Shown here piece by piece: positions 44,216 through 51,262 of a stretch of 64,000 bases of DNA. A program made the translations under genes and the position numbers. Each line of letters starts with the position of its first letter. The first letter of the stretch is position 1. The notes beneath the pieces are model-generated. The model worked only from the letters and a program-made list of their open reading frames with translations. It was not told where the DNA came from and made no database searches. Where the stretch lies: assembly GCA_945869265.1 (NCBI GenBank), contig CAMBOI010000008.1, forward strand, positions 1 to 64,000, in the 5' to 3' direction. Source of the DNA: an uncultured Prevotella sp. Its GTDB lineage: Bacteria > Bacteroidota > Bacteroidia > Bacteroidales > Bacteroidaceae.

Positions 44216-44244
44216 AGTTCTTTGTATATATACGGGTTAAAAAT

Positions 44245-44344
44245 AAAACTGTCATCTGTCATCTGTCACTACTTTCATCCACAGATGTTTTTATCCACAG
44301 ATTTCCACAGATGAAAATTTTTATTGGATTATCACAGATTTTTT
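44245..44344 (+). repeat. Outer inverted repeat, left copy (TGTCATC plus CCACAGAT modules)
   Basis: 100 nt identical to the reverse complement of 51152-51252 except for one extra T there. Confidence 0.95.
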
Positions 44345-44434
44345 ATCCACAGAGTTTTTTGTCCACAGATTATCACAGATTAACACAGATTTTTTTAATA
44401 TCTAAAGATATTTTGATTATCACAGATTTTTTTG
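44345..44434 (+). repeat. AATCTGTG/CACAGATT array
   Basis: Continues the CCACAGAT/ATCACAGATT unit series; shares gattatcacagattaacacagattt with 55.4 kb and, inverted, with window positions 1-60. Confidence 0.9.
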
Positions 44435-44682
44435 GGCACGGAAATCCACGGCTTTTTTTAAAAAAAAGACACGGCTTGGCTCCGCATTGATATCCCACGG
44501 CACTTCGTGATTACGGCTTGCTTCGCAAGTTCACGGCTTAGTTACATTTTTCAATATTTCAATATTTTAATATTTCATTTTAGAGCCGTGTCTATACTTT
44601 AGTATAGCCTTAATGCAAATAAAGCCATTCCTATGCGCAGCCCAGCCGTGTCTTTTTTAAAAGCCGTGTCCATCCGTGCCTA
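44435..44682 (+). repeat. CACGGC palindromic element, copy 1
   Basis: GGCACGGAAATCCACGGCTTTTTTT ... AAAAGCCGTGTCCATCCGTGCCTA terminal inverted repeats; internal CTATACTTTAGTATAG and CTTGCTTCGCAAG hairpins. Confidence 0.92.
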
Positions 44683-44711
44683 AAAATAAATCATCAATAA
44701 TCAATCATCAT

Positions 44712-44766
44712 CCTAATCAGAGCCTTTGGCTCTTAATCTGTGCCAATCTGTGTTAATCTGTGGTCT
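44712..44766 (+). repeat. 55-bp exact repeat, copy A
   Basis: cctaatcagagcctttggctcttaatctgtgccaatctgtgttaatctgtggtct is identical to 55746-55800. Confidence 0.95.
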
Positions 44767-44833
44767 GAAAAAAACTATCAGTGGTCTTTTCATCAGTGCC
44801 AATCAGAGTTAATCTGTGGTCTATAAAAACCTG

Positions 44834-47107
44834 TCAGACTTTGCACTTCACAATCTCTCCGTCGATCGACTCGTAGCTCACAATCCCCCGCGCCTTCCAC
44901 TTGGCCAACAAGTTCTTGGCCGAGCCGCCTCGCTTGCCGAGCCTCGAGCGCAGGTTTTCCAAGTCCTTAAGCCGGAATATCTCGGGCAACATCTCACAGA
45001 GATTCTGCGGACCGCGATGGTTTGACAGCTTGTTCTCGGCAATCTCCTTCTCAAGCATCTCGCCGAAAATCAGCATCTTGCACCACAAGTCATATCTCAA
45101 CGACCATCTCACATAGTCCTCGATTACCGTGGTCCATTGCTGACCGTTGAGCAGCCAGAGCACCATTCCCTTGAGCCATGCTATCACCGTGGCGCGATAA
45201 CTCAGCACGAGATAACCCTCGGAGTCGTATAGTTCGGCCAGGCGCTCATTTTCGTCGCACAGATTCTGCGCAAATTTGTTGGCCTCCTCGCATTTGTATG
45301 TGCCGTGAAACGACTCCAGCAAGTCAACCACCTTGTTCACCGTGGCGCGGTATTCGTCATCGTAGATGCCATACACAGGGCGAGCGCCTTCGGGCTTGAT
45401 GATGGTAGATACCGAGAGGCGGGTGATGGTGCCGTCGGTGATGTTCTTCCTGAAGAAGTTGCGGGCGTTCTTCGGGCAGCTCGACGCATTGAAGTTGAAG
45501 CGAAGCGGAGCTATTCCCGTCACCGATGCCGAGCCCACTCGCTCCTGTCCGTGAGGACTATTGTCAAACGCTTTGCGAATGATTGTACTGACCTCTTGCT
45601 CACTATTCCGGGAGGTGATATTTTTCAGAGTGTCGAGTTCATCCACTTTTACGTAAATATATTTCTCACCGTTGTAGGCTGCGTCGGCCACTCGCTGATT
45701 GAACACTGCGTCGGTCAGATTGTCTATGAGCGACTGCACGCAGAGGTCTTTTGGTCTTGCCTCTAGCGATGTTGCCCCTTGCGGGTTTTTCAGTTTCCAT
45801 TGCGCCTCGCGTTCCCTGGCCACTTTGTCATTTTCGGATATTCTGCTCACCATCATCTGACAGGGTTTGGTGACGCATCCCTTACCTATCGACATCTGAG
45901 CTGCCAGCAATTCCATAAACGTAGCCTCGTGCAATACATTGTCCCAATACATAAATTTCACACCGCTCATGTTCACTGCCATTGGCGGGAAGAGATTTTC
46001 GCACACTGCAGGGCGATAGTATTCAGGCGCTCTGGAGCACAGTTCGCCCAAGGGTGAGGGGAGAATCGTGGGCATTTGGGGAGGCAATTTGCTGTCGAGT
46101 GCATTCACCAGTTCGAGTTGGCTTTTGCCCTTGTTCTCTTCCTCGTTGAGCAGGTTGAGCACCTTCTGCAGTTTGAAGTTGATGCCCTTGCGCGGTTCGT
46201 CGATAGCATTTTTCAGGCATTGCTCATATTCCTCCTGCGGCAGATCGCAATAGCGGGGGATGACCAATTTGAGCACATTGATGTCATAATCGCATATCGC
46301 GCGTAGCGAGCGTGCGAGGTCGAAGATGAGAGCATTGCGATTGCCCACCACAGGCTCTTTGCCACCATTATATACCTCCCAGTATTTCGCGATAATCTTT
46401 GTAAAATTATATCCGAAATAGATGACATCGCCTTGCGGTGCCGATTGCGCCTCTGCCGCCTTGTCCGATTGCTCCTCGGTCGCCTTGCTCGCCTCGGCCT
46501 CCGGCTTCGCTTCTGTCGCCGTTTCTGCCGTCGCCTTCGTCCTTTCCTCCTTCTTCCCCTCGGCTGCCTCATTTATAAATAGCTCGTCCTTGCAGAAGAA
46601 GAGATCCTGAGCATCTGCGGTAGGCGTAAAGAAGACGCGAGTGATATCTTTTGCCGCAGGATCCGCCTCCACGCCAAGCATTTTCGATGCCCATTTCAGG
46701 TTTTCCTCCTGACTCATTTCGGGATGGCGTCGGAACACCACGTGCAAGCCCTTCGTAGCCGAGCGCTCGAGCATCAGCAGTCCCAGTTCATCGGCCTTGG
46801 CGAGGATATTTTCCTTTACAATGTCAAACTGCCGTTGGAACTCCTCCTTATCCATTCCCGCCTGAAAATCCACGTCCATTCCCACCGAGTTGCTCTCCAC
46901 CGTGGCGCCTTTGAGCTTGCCGTCATTCGGCATACAGGAGTAATTGAACTGTATCATCCTGCGCTTGCCGTCAGCATTGCCGTTGCGCGCTTGTTGAGTC
47001 ATCTCGCGGTTGTGTTTTGAGTTGCGCAGTGCGGCAAATTCCTTGAAGTTCTTAATCGGGATCATAGTTTTCGCCCCGTTCTTATATTCTATTACGTGTA
47101 CGCTCAT
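44834..47107 (-). CDS. BT4734-like N-terminal domain/DUF3987 primase-helicase-like protein
   Basis: VGMDVDF, SATKGLHVVFRR, DITRVFFTP (AEP/BT4734-like); AAQMSIGKGCV degenerate P-loop, YVKVDELDTLKN, ITRLSVSTI. Confidence 0.8.
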   Translation of the reverse strand: MSVHVIEYKNGAKTMIPIKNFKEFAALRNSKHNREMTQQARNGNADGKRRMIQFNYSCMPNDGKLKGATVESNSVGMDVDFQAGMDKEEFQRQFDIVKENILAKADELGLLMLERSATKGLHVVFRRHPEMSQEENLKWASKMLGVEADPAAKDITRVFFTPTADAQDLFFCKDELFINEAAEGKKEERTKATAETATEAKPEAEASKATEEQSDKAAEAQSAPQGDVIYFGYNFTKIIAKYWEVYNGGKEPVVGNRNALIFDLARSLRAICDYDINVLKLVIPRYCDLPQEEYEQCLKNAIDEPRKGINFKLQKVLNLLNEEENKGKSQLELVNALDSKLPPQMPTILPSPLGELCSRAPEYYRPAVCENLFPPMAVNMSGVKFMYWDNVLHEATFMELLAAQMSIGKGCVTKPCQMMVSRISENDKVAREREAQWKLKNPQGATSLEARPKDLCVQSLIDNLTDAVFNQRVADAAYNGEKYIYVKVDELDTLKNITSRNSEQEVSTIIRKAFDNSPHGQERVGSASVTGIAPLRFNFNASSCPKNARNFFRKNITDGTITRLSVSTIIKPEGARPVYGIYDDEYRATVNKVVDLLESFHGTYKCEEANKFAQNLCDENERLAELYDSEGYLVLSYRATVIAWLKGMVLWLLNGQQWTTVIEDYVRWSLRYDLWCKMLIFGEMLEKEIAENKLSNHRGPQNLCEMLPEIFRLKDLENLRSRLGKRGGSAKNLLAKWKARGIVSYESIDGEIVKCKV

Positions 47108-47481
47108 TTCAATGCCTCCTTTATTTCCTTTTTCATTACTGTCTTAAAGTCAACCCCCTCGTCGTCATACACTTTCATCATCAGCAGGTAGGCTCCGTCG
47201 GCTGTCTTCGACAGACTGCCGTGCATCGTGGATTTCAGTCGCACGGCGCGACTCTTGTTCTGTCTTGTCCTCGGTGTCACCACGATATATCCCTCGTCGT
47301 CGATAGAGTAGTAGCCCCATCTGTGCACCTGCTTCACCCTGTGCGGGCGTGCCGCGTCGGGCACCACCTTCACCGTGTTGTCTTCATACACCATTGCCTT
47401 GCCGGCATATACAGTCTCTAATGTTCGCGCGCAAGAAATACCTGCTTGGCAGGCAATCTCCAAAATCTTCTTTCGTGCCAT
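47104..47481 (-). CDS. Hypothetical protein, overlaps the primase start by 4 bp
   Basis: 125-aa ORF directly upstream of the primase-like gene. Confidence 0.75.
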   Translation of the reverse strand: MARKKILEIACQAGISCARTLETVYAGKAMVYEDNTVKVVPDAARPHRVKQVHRWGYYSIDDEGYIVVTPRTRQNKSRAVRLKSTMHGSLSKTADGAYLLMMKVYDDEGVDFKTVMKKEIKEALK

Positions 47482-47508
47482 ATTCTGAAATTAAATGTCT
47501 TGAAAAAA

Positions 47509-47802
47509 TTAATACTTAAAATCCTTGTTGAAATGCTGTTCCTTGATGAGCACCATCAGAGCCCATGCCGTGCCTCTGACGTTGCGCAGTTCCTCGGGTA
47601 GCATCTTCATCGCGGTTGAGAAATACCACAGCGCATTAGCCACGTCGGGCTGCACCTCGGAGCGCAGTCCAGCCACGAAATTTACGCAGTCGCTGCCCAC
47701 TCTCTCGCTCACGCCCGTCACCACCAGGTCGAGAGTCTCCTTTGCGTTTGGATTGAGGGGATATTTCCCCGTCTCCATCATCTCAACAGTTTTTGTTGCC
47801 AT
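47509..47802 (-). CDS. Hypothetical small protein
   Basis: MATKTVEMMETGKYPLNPNAKETLDLVV...; start set at ATG 47802, not the longer 47868. Confidence 0.7.
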   Translation of the reverse strand: MATKTVEMMETGKYPLNPNAKETLDLVVTGVSERVGSDCVNFVAGLRSEVQPDVANALWYFSTAMKMLPEELRNVRGTAWALMVLIKEQHFNKDFKY

Positions 47803-47884
47803 AATCTCTTTTGTTTTTAAATTAATAATGTGTATATCACTCTCTGCGACTGTCGAATGGCCATTCATCGTCGTATTTCAGGTG

Positions 47885-47892
47885 CAAAGATA
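47885..47892 (-). promoter_or_regulatory. -7 element TATCTTTG for the primase operon
   Basis: CAAAGATA on + strand, about 83 bp upstream of ATG 47802. Confidence 0.6.
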
Positions 47893-47927
47893 AGAAGTAT
47901 TTTCCACATGGATGTAATGAAAATGCA

Positions 47928-47955
47928 TAAAAAAAGCGACCGGAAATGGTCGCTT
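47928..47955 (-). terminator. Hairpin terminator
   Basis: AAGCGACC-ggaaat-GGTCGCTT followed on - strand by a U tract. Confidence 0.8.
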
Positions 47956-47998
47956 GAAATATCTGATGATTACTCTAAGTAGATTAATAATCAGACGA

Positions 47999-48511
47999 TT
48001 AATAGGTGGTCGCTTTCGGTCGCATAATTTTTAGGAGTGTGTCACTCTCGGATGATATTACGGGTTTGTTCTTCGCCAATTTCAGCGGTTTGCCGTCTTT
48101 CACGAACAGCTTCTCGGTCAGTTCTTCCAATGTCGCCATCCTCAGTAGTTTTGAGTCGATGGCCTTCTGGTTTTTGAGTGTGACAAACTCGCGCGCCAGT
48201 TGCTTGGTCTGCAACCATACAATCTGCTTCACCTCGCCGTTGATTTCGGCCTTGTATCCCATTATGAAGAGAAACGAGTCTTCGTCGCAGTCAGGGGCGA
48301 TGAATCTTTCGTTGATGAGCTGTTGATACACCTCTCTGCCTTGCTTCTCGTTGCCATCGAGCGGGAAATGCCTCTTACCGCCCTCATTTGCGGCGTGCTG
48401 ATGGTTAATCACCGTTCCGCCCGATTCGTTCACCACGATGATCTGTGCCTCACTGAGGTCTGCTCCCTTGAACAGCCCTTCAAACATTCCTTTACTTTCC
48501 ATGTTTTCCAT
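47999..48511 (-). CDS. Hypothetical protein
   Basis: 170-aa ORF in operon with 48492-49139 (20-bp overlap). Confidence 0.75.
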   Translation of the reverse strand: MENMESKGMFEGLFKGADLSEAQIIVVNESGGTVINHQHAANEGGKRHFPLDGNEKQGREVYQQLINERFIAPDCDEDSFLFIMGYKAEINGEVKQIVWLQTKQLAREFVTLKNQKAIDSKLLRMATLEELTEKLFVKDGKPLKLAKNKPVISSESDTLLKIMRPKATTY

Positions 48512-49139
48512 TTTTCTTCTTATTATGATATTCCACTTTCCCGTTATTGCTCACCACTACCTGGGCCGCCGTGTGCACGATCGGCTGAGGCTCATGCCTA
48601 TGATTGTTGTCATATTCCTGGGGTATTTTTTCTGTCTTTTGCATTAATTCGAAAATGTCTGCTTGAGGAGCCTTGCAGTCATTCAAATAATAATGCATCA
48701 GCATATCCTTGATTACCACAGCCTGCTCGCGTGTATAGGATAGATTCTGCGCATAATCAATTATCCAGTTTGCATCTATCCTGATCGCCTTTTTCTTGAC
48801 GCTCATCACTGTGTCGCGCTCCTCTTCTTGGGCATTTATCCCTGGCTTGCTTATTATGATGTGATCCCGGGCTTCAATCTGCTTAATCTTGGATTCCAGC
48901 CTTTTGTGTGTCATCGCAAGCTTTTGGTATTGCTCGGCAGTTTTTTCCGCCTGGGTTTTCCATGCGCTATTGTCTTTCTCCAACTCTTCTGTCTGATTTC
49001 TGAGCGACTCGTTTTCAGTCTTCAGTTGTCTGACGTAGTTCTTGAAATTCACAATGCGTTGGTCGTCGTCCTTGGTTTTGTCAGCCAGGATGAGTTCGAG
49101 CAATTCTAACCCGTACAAGTCTTCATTTCTTCTTTTCAT
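48492..49139 (-). CDS. Hypothetical coiled-coil protein
   Basis: Long heptad-like region VRQLKTENESLRNQTEELEKDNSAWKTQAEKTAEQYQKLAM. Confidence 0.75.
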   Translation of the reverse strand: MKRRNEDLYGLELLELILADKTKDDDQRIVNFKNYVRQLKTENESLRNQTEELEKDNSAWKTQAEKTAEQYQKLAMTHKRLESKIKQIEARDHIIISKPGINAQEEERDTVMSVKKKAIRIDANWIIDYAQNLSYTREQAVVIKDMLMHYYLNDCKAPQADIFELMQKTEKIPQEYDNNHRHEPQPIVHTAAQVVVSNNGKVEYHNKKKNGKHGK

Positions 49140-49174
49140 ATCAAAGATTTTTGTTTGTATTTATAAAATCGCTG

Positions 49175-49182
49175 CAAAGTTA
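49175..49182 (-). promoter_or_regulatory. -7 element TAACTTTG for the 49139 operon
   Basis: CAAAGTTA on + strand upstream of ATG 49139. Confidence 0.6.
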
Positions 49183-49312
49183 ATAAAAAAATCCCGTTCT
49201 GCCAATACCCATTGTCTATTCTTAACAGATACCGAAAAAGAAAAAAGAATTCTCATTATCTGTATGTCAACAAAAATGAAGATTTTTACGCAAGGTGCAA
49301 GGGTATGAGGGA

Positions 49313-49525
49313 AGTGACAGATGACAGATGACAGTTTTGTTTTTTACTCGGATATGGGGGAGTGGGATATTTTTAGAAAATTGCTCTAAGAATTTTATGT
49401 TATATATATTTATATATATAATATATTATATATATAAATATATATAACATAACCCCTAAATCCAGGTATAACCTCATACATACATCCCGAGTAAAAAATG
49501 AAACTGTCATCTGTCATCTGTCACT
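49313..49525. repeat. Large hairpin element with perfect 58-bp central palindrome (49395-49452)
   Basis: 39-bp outer arms 49313-49351 and 49487-49525 (2 mismatches); central ttatgttatatatatttatatatataata/tattatatatataaatatatataacataa checked base by base. Confidence 0.97.
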
Positions 49526-49745
49526 AAATTGAGTGTATTGCATGGATGGGGTCATTTTCTTAAAAAACATGGAATGTAAAAACATTTAACCGAAATGATA
49601 ACGCACCGCGTTTTGGTAGTTAGACAACAATTGTGGGGTAGTTGGAGAGATGGATTATAGGCCGCGGGCGGGACGCCATGCTCCCAGAGGCTCCGCGACA
49701 GAGGGAATATGATGTTAAATGATGTTAATAGCAGTAATTTTGATT

Positions 49746-49785
49746 GCTCACAAAATTGCCATGTGCTCACAAAATCGTACCTTTG
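49746..49785 (+). promoter_or_regulatory. Promoter of the HU-like gene with duplicated GCTCACAAAAT
   Basis: GCTCACAAAAT at 49746-49756 and 49765-49775; TTG at 49755-49757 and TACCTTTG at 49778-49785, 20-bp spacer. Confidence 0.7.
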
Positions 49786-49886
49786 CAACGTGGGAATGAG
49801 AGATACTGCGCAGGCTCTCGGGACACAAAAATGTGAGAACAACAAACAAAAAATTTTTTATTAACCTTTTTAATTTAATTACAGTT

Positions 49887-50462
49887 ATGGCAATTAAGAT
49901 TCGAGCACAAGAGAAGAAGATTCTCGTGGGACCCAACAAGGGTCAGTATGCGTATGTAGCGCAAGTGGAGCTTTATTCTGCACTCACGCAGAGCAAGGTT
50001 CTTGAGGAGGCAGCCCTGAGCTGCGGTGTTAACAAGTCGGTTCTCGCGGCATCGTGGGAAGGTCTCGGGCACGTGATCAACCGATGGGCGACGGAGGGAC
50101 ACTCGGTGCCTATCCCGGGACTCGGTACGATGCGATTTAGCGTCAACTCTCAGAGCGTGGAGAAGTTGGAAGACGTGTCGGCCAAGATGATTACCACGCG
50201 CAAGGTGGTGTTCACTCCGAGTGTCGATCTGAAGAACACGCTGGCTTCCACCTCGGTGAGCATCACCTGTTACGACCGCAATGGCGACATGGTGAAGCGA
50301 GTGACGGCTTCGGGAGCGCCTGTGGAGGGCGAGGGTGACACCTCGGGCGAGGAGAACGAGACTCCGACTGACACTGGCGGCAGCGGCAGCGACAACACCG
50401 GCAGTGGCTCTGACAACACCGGCAGCGGCTCTGCCACCGATGGCGAGGACTACTACGAGTAG
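49887..50462 (+). CDS. HU-like DNA-binding protein with GSDNTGSG-rich tail
   Basis: MAIKIRAQEKKILVGPNKGQYAYVAQVELYSALTQSKVLEEAALSCGVNKSVLAASWEGLGHVINRWATEGHSVPIPGLGTMRF. Confidence 0.88.
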   Translation: MAIKIRAQEKKILVGPNKGQYAYVAQVELYSALTQSKVLEEAALSCGVNKSVLAASWEGLGHVINRWATEGHSVPIPGLGTMRFSVNSQSVEKLEDVSAKMITTRKVVFTPSVDLKNTLASTSVSITCYDRNGDMVKRVTASGAPVEGEGDTSGEENETPTDTGGSGSDNTGSGSDNTGSGSATDGEDYYE

Positions 50463-50535
50463 GTTGAGAGCCCTTCGGGGCTCTTAAAATTGAAATATTG
50501 AAATATTGAAAGATTGATGATTATTGATAAATTTT

Positions 50536-50759
50536 AGGCACGGATTGACACGGCTTTTTAAAAAAGACACGGCTGGGCTCCGCACGGGAATGGCTTTATT
50601 TGCATAAAGGCTATACTAAAGTATAGACACGGCTCATTACCGCAGAAAAGCAAACTAAGCCGTGAACTTGCGAAGCAAGCCGTAACCACGAAGTGCCGTG
50701 GTAAATATCCATGTGGAGCCAAGCCGTGTCTTTGAAAAAGCCGTGGATTTCCGTGCCTA
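50536..50759 (-). repeat. CACGGC palindromic element, copy 2 (inverted)
   Basis: TAGGCACGGATTGACACGGCTTTTT ... AAAAAGCCGTGGATTTCCGTGCCTA ends. Confidence 0.92.
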
Positions 50760-50797
50760 ATAAATTAAGGACAATTAAAATTATGGAGGACAAAATT

Positions 50798-50905
50798 ATG
50801 ACAAAAGAGAACAAAGCAAGACTGGTCAAGTTTCTGTGGAACCTCGCCTCGGCAGTATTGGCAGCAATCGGAACCGCTCTTGGCGTAAGTTGCGCAGTAG
50901 CATAA
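50798..50905 (+). CDS. Smalltalk-like 35-aa single-TM peptide
   Basis: MTKENKARLVKFLWNLASAVLAAIGTALGVSCAVA; resembles the Bacteroidales smalltalk family found next to HU-like genes. Confidence 0.7.
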   Translation: MTKENKARLVKFLWNLASAVLAAIGTALGVSCAVA

Positions 50906-50910
50906 ATTTT

Positions 50911-50988
50911 TACCACAGAGATAAAAAGAAAAAGAGATTTGTAGTTTATCGTAATATGAATACTCTAAATCTCTTAATCTCTGTGGTT
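50911..50988. repeat. Inverted repeat with CCACAGAG/CTCTGTGG ends
   Basis: taccacagagataaaaagaaaaagagattt versus aaatctcttaatctctgtggt. Confidence 0.75.
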
Positions 50989-51002
50989 CAAAATCATTTT
51001 AA

Positions 51003-51107
51003 GCAGTGAACTTGCGCAAGCAAGCCGTTATCACGAAGTGCCGTGGTAAATATCCATGCGGAGCAAAGCCGTGTCTTTTTAAAAAAAGCCGTGTCTTTCC
51101 GTGCCTA
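51003..51107 (-). repeat. CACGGC element, copy 3 (inverted, truncated)
   Basis: gtgaacttgcgcaagcaagccgttatcacgaagtgccgtgg ... ccgtgcctaaaa. Confidence 0.88.
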
Positions 51108-51262
51108 AAATAAAAATCTGTGATAATCTGTGGACAAAAACATTTGTGGACAAAAAATCTGTGATAATCCAATAAAAATTTTCATCTGTGGAAATCTGTG
51201 GATAAAAAACATCTGTGGATGAAAGTAGTGACAGATGACAGATGACAGTTTTGTTTTTTACT
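51108..51262 (-). repeat. AATCTGTG array plus outer inverted repeat, right copy (51152-51252)
   Basis: Reverse complement matches 44245-44344. Confidence 0.95.

Follow-up and report, generated by a model that had tools for sequence, protein, structure and literature searches.

A hairpin of island-specific repeats around an A/T palindrome as the possible replication origin of a PrimPol-helicase island in Prevotella

The window, a stretch of 64,000 nucleotides, comes from contig CAMBOI010000008.1 of an uncultured Prevotella sp., whose 2.8-Mb genome is assembled in 71 contigs and whose relatives are Prevotella. Two copies of a repeat, designated A, lie at 44233-44271 (minus strand, beyond the 3′ end of a PrimPol-helicase gene) and at 51219-51262 (plus strand, on the HU side, adjoining the stop of a clostripain gene). 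They are mutually inverted and lie outermost in a pair of long collinear inverted repeats (44236-44662 on the left and 50556-51261 on the right, the latter with an internal duplication of about 345 bp), so that the 7.0-kb stretch they enclose (44233-51262) is a discrete island. The long inverted repeats are layered from distinct short tandem repeats (TGTCATC, ATCCACAG, CCACGG, GACACGGCTTGG and others). In plus orientation the island reads A′, a leftward PrimPol-helicase operon, A-palindrome-A′, a rightward HU-like gene and A. The minus-strand genes encode a ‘VirE-like’ PrimPol-helicase of 757 aa (44834-47107; hereafter VirE), two operon proteins of 125 aa (47104-47481) and 119 aa (47509-47868) that are conserved in sister species, a 170-aa cargo protein (47999-48511) and a 215-aa coiled-coil cargo protein (48492-49139), while the plus strand encodes an HU-like DNA-binding protein (HU-HIG, 49887-50462; Pfam E 7e-17). 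By inspection, putative Bacteroidetes -7-like boxes were assigned to the minus operon (TAACTTTGC, 49174-49182, minus strand) and to the HU operon (TACCTTTGC, 49778-49786, plus strand), and the hairpin sits between these two apparent promoters.

The hairpin spans 213 nt (49313-49525). Its left arm A (49313-49351, plus strand) consists of three near-tandem, iteron-like TGACAGA heptamers followed by TTTT (AGTGACAGATGACAGATGACAGTTTT), and its right arm A′ (49487-49525, minus strand) is the reverse complement of A, with 37/39 positions pairing. An almost pure A/T palindrome occupies 49395-49452, and a position-by-position check found all 58 of its positions self-complementary. Folded as single-stranded DNA, the hairpin reached -63.5 kcal/mol, compared with -15.3 ± 2.7 kcal/mol for dinucleotide shuffles (z = -17.9). 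These measurements agree with an earlier, sequence-only reading of the window, which had described an uninterrupted 58-bp palindrome, 39-bp outer arms with two mismatches and a TGTCATC module at both island ends (here 44233-44271 and 51219-51262). The structure did not arise by chance and is probably not an assembly artefact, because the same genome has a second 213-bp hairpin with 84% identity, flanked by thrC and a DUF4301-like gene on contig C17, and two independently assembled contigs of Prevotella SUG565 (L068 and L081) carry the identical 58-bp palindrome. The C17 hairpin retains the HU-type promoter sequence without the HU gene and thus looks like a remnant.

When one genome per species was scanned with the arm motif, 111 stretches were retrieved, all from Prevotella or other Bacteroidales; a pattern taken from the tail of the window arm gave 0 matches in other genomes. 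Complete hairpins measured about 120-420 bp and had a common layout with differing interiors. One SUG565 hairpin (L068:3240-3448) combines the host genome's two hairpin types, fused at the 58-bp palindrome, and links the HU/clostripain side to thrC; this chimera reflects either recombination or misassembly at the palindrome. In a close relative (G015), two contigs end at the palindrome (L022, L030), so hairpins of this kind are probably a cause of fragmentation in many Bacteroidales assemblies. Nested hairpins were also observed (L050:5570-5844 and L093:5969-6240), in which TGACAGA, TCACAGA and AATCAG occupy symmetric layers round a single A/T core, as though one site had been shared or re-entered by islands of differing specificity. 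A TAACATTAAGGTCT repeat directly adjoins several TGACAG hairpins (L016, L070, L080, L095, L101, L102, L112) and itself serves as the arm repeat in a different class of islands (L227, L342, L344, L345).

The window VirE protein matched no Pfam or NCBIfam family. Its sequence carries AEP-type motifs (D80, H122, D149), a P-loop (G408, K409) and a winged-helix-like C-terminal end. In the family alignment D80 is nearly invariant, H122 and D149 are invariant, the AEP motifs hhhDhD, sxH and hD are matched, and the P-loop and a conserved, winged-helix-like C-terminus recur. One relative (L086) matched DUF3987 weakly, with an E-value of 5.7e-5 that lies below the cut-off, and an AlphaFold model of VirE (pLDDT 71.5) was closest, at low TM-scores, to MCM/CMG replicative helicases and papillomavirus E1. 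On its motifs, VirE appears to be a BT4734/DUF3987-like PrimPol-helicase.

Many of the stretches found with the arm motif encode a relative of VirE, in the recurrent order hairpin, other genes, VirE and a single A. Since that sample had been selected by motif, the association was tested again on loci gathered by the VirE protein only (40 loci at genus level and 20 at family level, of which 59 were evaluable), a match requiring that 12-mers around the 3′ end of a gene recur upstream, one direct and one inverted, flanking an A/T core. By this measure, 33/59 VirE 3′ ends matched an upstream A-(AT)-A′ hairpin, compared with 6/523 other ORF ends (Fisher p = 1e-31). Three of the six background matches (L199, L201, L203) share their hairpin with the VirE end, each being the island's fourth copy of A, sited where the opposite operon ends distally; at least three of the six thus belong to the island itself, and the true background is lower still. 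Each matched VirE end corresponds to the hairpin arms of its own island, and arms show no relationship from one island to another. Among the 22 loci that first proved positive, A makes up the left arm, the right arm and the VirE end in the order seen in the window, with one or two further inverted A copies on the far side in seven of them, and the orientation of VirE relative to the hairpin was constant in all 22, none being flipped. The hairpin lies about 1.5-22 kb upstream of VirE, depending on the cargo. For 26 of the 59 loci, many of them on short contigs, no matched hairpin was found; several of these negatives lie on contigs that stop too soon, and three others among them (L191, L202, L207) have an upstream A/T hairpin with a diverged or unmatched end copy.

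At the genome level, VirE was found in 55/119 Prevotella genomes sampled and in 43/45 genomes with TGACAG hairpins. It was confirmed nearby for only about one quarter of TGACAG hairpins, an undercount arising from 8-kb slices, and wider checks added four. The A-core-A′, cargo, VirE-A layout is present in other genera too. In several islands (e.g. L111, L121, L126, L201, L218), A and the final codons of VirE overlap, always in one reading frame, and the repeat there encodes peptides such as QMTDDSF, QNTEYSF and QMADGSF, close to where the winged-helix-like region ends. A correlation between the iterons and the VirE C-terminal domain was not significant (r = 0.21, p = 0.065) and is confounded, because A overlaps those codons.

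The repeat unit itself varies from island to island, whereas the layout, A and A′ around a core of at least 90% A/T followed by cargo and VirE-A, is constant. About 17 units were distinguished: TGACAGA, TATTCAG, GTTACAG, TATCCCAG, ATACAGA, TGTGACAGT, GTGACAGC, TCTTACAG, ATGGCAG, AATCTCA, GAACGAA, AATTACA, GAGCACA, ATTACTCA, TGTTACAG, GTTGCAG and AAATGACA. The majority finish in CAG and are followed by T's, a second class finishes in ACATTAAG, and most loci have about three tandem units of 7-9 nt per arm. A 50-nt core of at least 90% A/T was present in 84/92 hairpins compared with 1/16171 background windows from loci of 51% A/T, and it was centred at a relative position of 0.52 in the hairpin. 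The core was palindromic beyond ten composition shuffles in 59/94 hairpins; some hairpins of rumen origin are rich in A/T yet lack a long palindrome, which makes the A/T core the more general feature. Because RNAalifold applied to the whole hairpin recovered only the arms, pairing within the core was counted separately: across 17 alignable hairpins the AT palindrome pairs in 91.6% of cells, compared with 25-56% after sliding, with double changes at five pairs.

These comparisons bear on the remaining claims of the sequence-only reading. Its proposal of an origin-like or recombination site between two operons fits, as many islands hold the same structure between a divergent HU-like gene and the PrimPol-helicase operon. 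It had also suggested looking for relatives that conserve a palindrome without conserving its sequence, and such relatives exist; the idea that relatives might have none is contradicted by the identical palindrome in SUG565. The view that retention of the palindrome points to a recent origin was not supported, the architecture being widespread and old, with arms fully diverged between islands and the layout and AT core kept. SbcCD-type instability of a 58-bp palindrome is doubtful on general grounds: clear palindrome instability takes lengths well over 100 bp.

Recurrent neighbours of the unit are a DUF5675-type protein just 3′ of VirE and the HU-like gene across the hairpin. The cargo is often restriction-modification (type II methyltransferases, a PglX-like methyltransferase), and a WYL protein and an ion channel with an HsdR-N protein also occur. 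A second PrimPol-helicase operon in the host genome, on contig C3 (L039:1993-12745), adjoins type III restriction-modification genes and encodes homologues of the 170- and 215-aa proteins of the window; no hairpin was found within 14 kb of it. Some cargo names, including those of the C3 genes, were assigned by inspection.

As judged by comparison of copies, the hairpin-VirE unit evidently relocates between contexts. In two species (L205 and L223), a 4.4-kb block that starts about 140 bp to the left of the hairpin and finishes with the VirE-end A is 92% identical; homology ceases at that A and the flanks are unrelated. Two unit copies with 97% identity were found in one genome. In G045, homology of the element runs about 1.45 kb past the VirE-end A, which is therefore not always the terminus. 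One complete genome contains three solo hairpins, one of them a clear deleted island, and two of the solo cases examined (the host's own C17 copy and G045 206511) look like deleted islands. No target duplication and no syntenic empty site was detected among 30 loci of relatives, and a search for the empty site of the C17 hairpin recovered the thrC-DUF4301 gap in the host genome only, the G015 contig starting at the hairpin. A plasmid or phage origin was rejected, since VirE was absent from plasmids and from IMG/VR contigs and the arm motif gave 0 matches in IMG/VR; one weak phage record for VirE had no hairpin. Circular small contigs were likewise rejected, there being no terminal overlap.

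Short tandem repeats round an A/T core beside the island's own primase-helicase have the anatomy of an iteron origin of the kind found in P4, SaPI and PLE satellites (PMC7145576), with several short direct repeats, an adjacent A/T-rich region and a linked candidate initiator gene. Our interpretation is accordingly that the hairpin serves as the replication origin of a mobile island that is integrated in the chromosome and centred on the PrimPol-helicase. We put the probability of this reading at roughly 0.52. The arms, each with three island-specific heptamers and TTTT in the window, would be tandem iterons arranged as inverted sets flanking the core. VirE, as the putative initiator, primase and helicase of this iteron-type origin, would bind A on both sides; the bound iterons would melt the A/T core, with the palindrome aiding extrusion, and VirE would then prime replication in both outward directions, along the HU-side arm and along the arm with cargo and VirE, as far as the terminal A copies. 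These copies may mark the ends or provide a second cis site. The single fixed A at the VirE end exceeds the needs of an origin alone, and the island may also be excised.

The main rival to the origin reading treats the A repeats as ends used in recombination or transposition, with A′ and A bracketing each island half as terminal inverted repeats and the hairpin being an end-to-end junction or attachment site served by an enzyme encoded elsewhere. It is possible, if on the doubtful side. The outer A copies of the window island are inverted and outermost in its bounding repeats, the L205/L223 homology ends right past the VirE-end A, one complete genome has solo hairpins of 95-97% identity scattered through it, and hairpins with different arm types are nested. 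However, among 40 VirE loci no integrase-like, transposase or invertase family recurs in the neighbourhood, target duplications and empty sites were not found in the search above, VirE was never flipped in the 22 loci examined, and the G045 homology extends beyond the supposed end. Recombination at the inverted A repeats might alternatively define an invertible, phase-variable cassette, as gene cassettes flanked by inverted repeats would allow, but the same constancy of orientation in 22/22 loci and the lack of a recurrent invertase nearby make this extremely improbable. An integron attC site or invertible promoter was rejected, given a single hairpin per island, constant orientation and no dedicated recombinase.

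Already disfavoured, and unlikely in our estimate, is the idea that the hairpin is a MITE-like or selfish intergenic repeat with no island function and only a chance link to VirE. Many copies are indeed solo and intergenic in all gene orientations, and Bacteroidales have other intergenic MITEs, such as BrickBuilt of P. gingivalis (PMC4596501). Yet arms that match a VirE end match that of their own island and are unrelated to those of others, so one spreading repeat family cannot explain the hairpins, and two of the solo cases examined resemble deleted islands. The position of the window hairpin between divergent operons and its strong predicted RNA fold could also indicate a regulatory or RNA element, namely a very strong terminator, an attenuator or a bidirectional operator. 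We consider this very unlikely, because inspection places the hairpin upstream of the two apparent promoters, gene orientation shows no preference across loci, and the recurrence of A at the far end of VirE would be left unexplained; a terminator, operator or mRNA hairpin was rejected on the lack of orientation preference and the location outside apparent transcripts.

Going beyond the origin reading, and only as a tentative and rather improbable suggestion, the islands may form a new class of self-synthesising chromosomal elements of Bacteroidales without a recognisable transposase, in which the PrimPol-helicase acts on private repeats to copy and relocate defence cargo and solo hairpins are mobilised in trans. 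The repeats acted upon would then be those at the central A/T palindrome and at both ends, and solo hairpins would be non-autonomous copies. The analysis offers a testable role for a large family of uncharacterised ‘VirE’ primase-helicases, accounts for giant AT hairpins that break assemblies, and provides dozens of natural candidate initiator-repeat pairs in which the repeat sequence is rewritten and the architecture held constant. If the islands replicate, gut bacteria would have in them a mobile carrier of defence genes, restriction genes included.

A small open-access literature search found no described hairpin-VirE element and no matched repeats. BrickBuilt is likewise an intergenic tandem-unit repeat in Bacteroidales, but it is a 23-nt minisatellite with short inverted ends, and its abstract mentions no linked primase gene (PMC4596501). 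BT4734-like/DUF3987 AEP primase-helicases share the AEP-type motifs and AAA+ ATPase, and a C-terminal winged helix has been predicted for origin recognition in related families; that work covers BT4734-like proteins and not a cognate origin (Kazlauskas 2018, PMC5862659). The features that define P4/PICI satellites, an integrase with att sites, packaging or hijack genes and viral particles, do not describe the islands, in which no terminase, capsid-redirecting, phage-hijacking or integrase genes were found. In SaPI origins, iterons flank an A/T region. SaPI/PICI and PLE elements resemble the islands in having iterons served by an island-encoded initiator, a role that VirE would fill here, and PLE iterons hold inverted sub-repeats (PMC7145576); unlike them, the islands have a palindromic A/T core and extra repeat copies at their ends. 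P4 differs in its primase family, and the repeats here form a giant inverted pair round an A/T palindrome. P4 has short repeats at its origin (ori) and a second repeat site (crr) elsewhere in the element. Both P4 and SaPI replicate using an initiator helicase and a primase (PMC7145576), and the islands are most like P4 in being compact chromosomal elements with a single multidomain primase-helicase, which in P4 is the alpha protein, a fused helicase-primase (PMC7145576).
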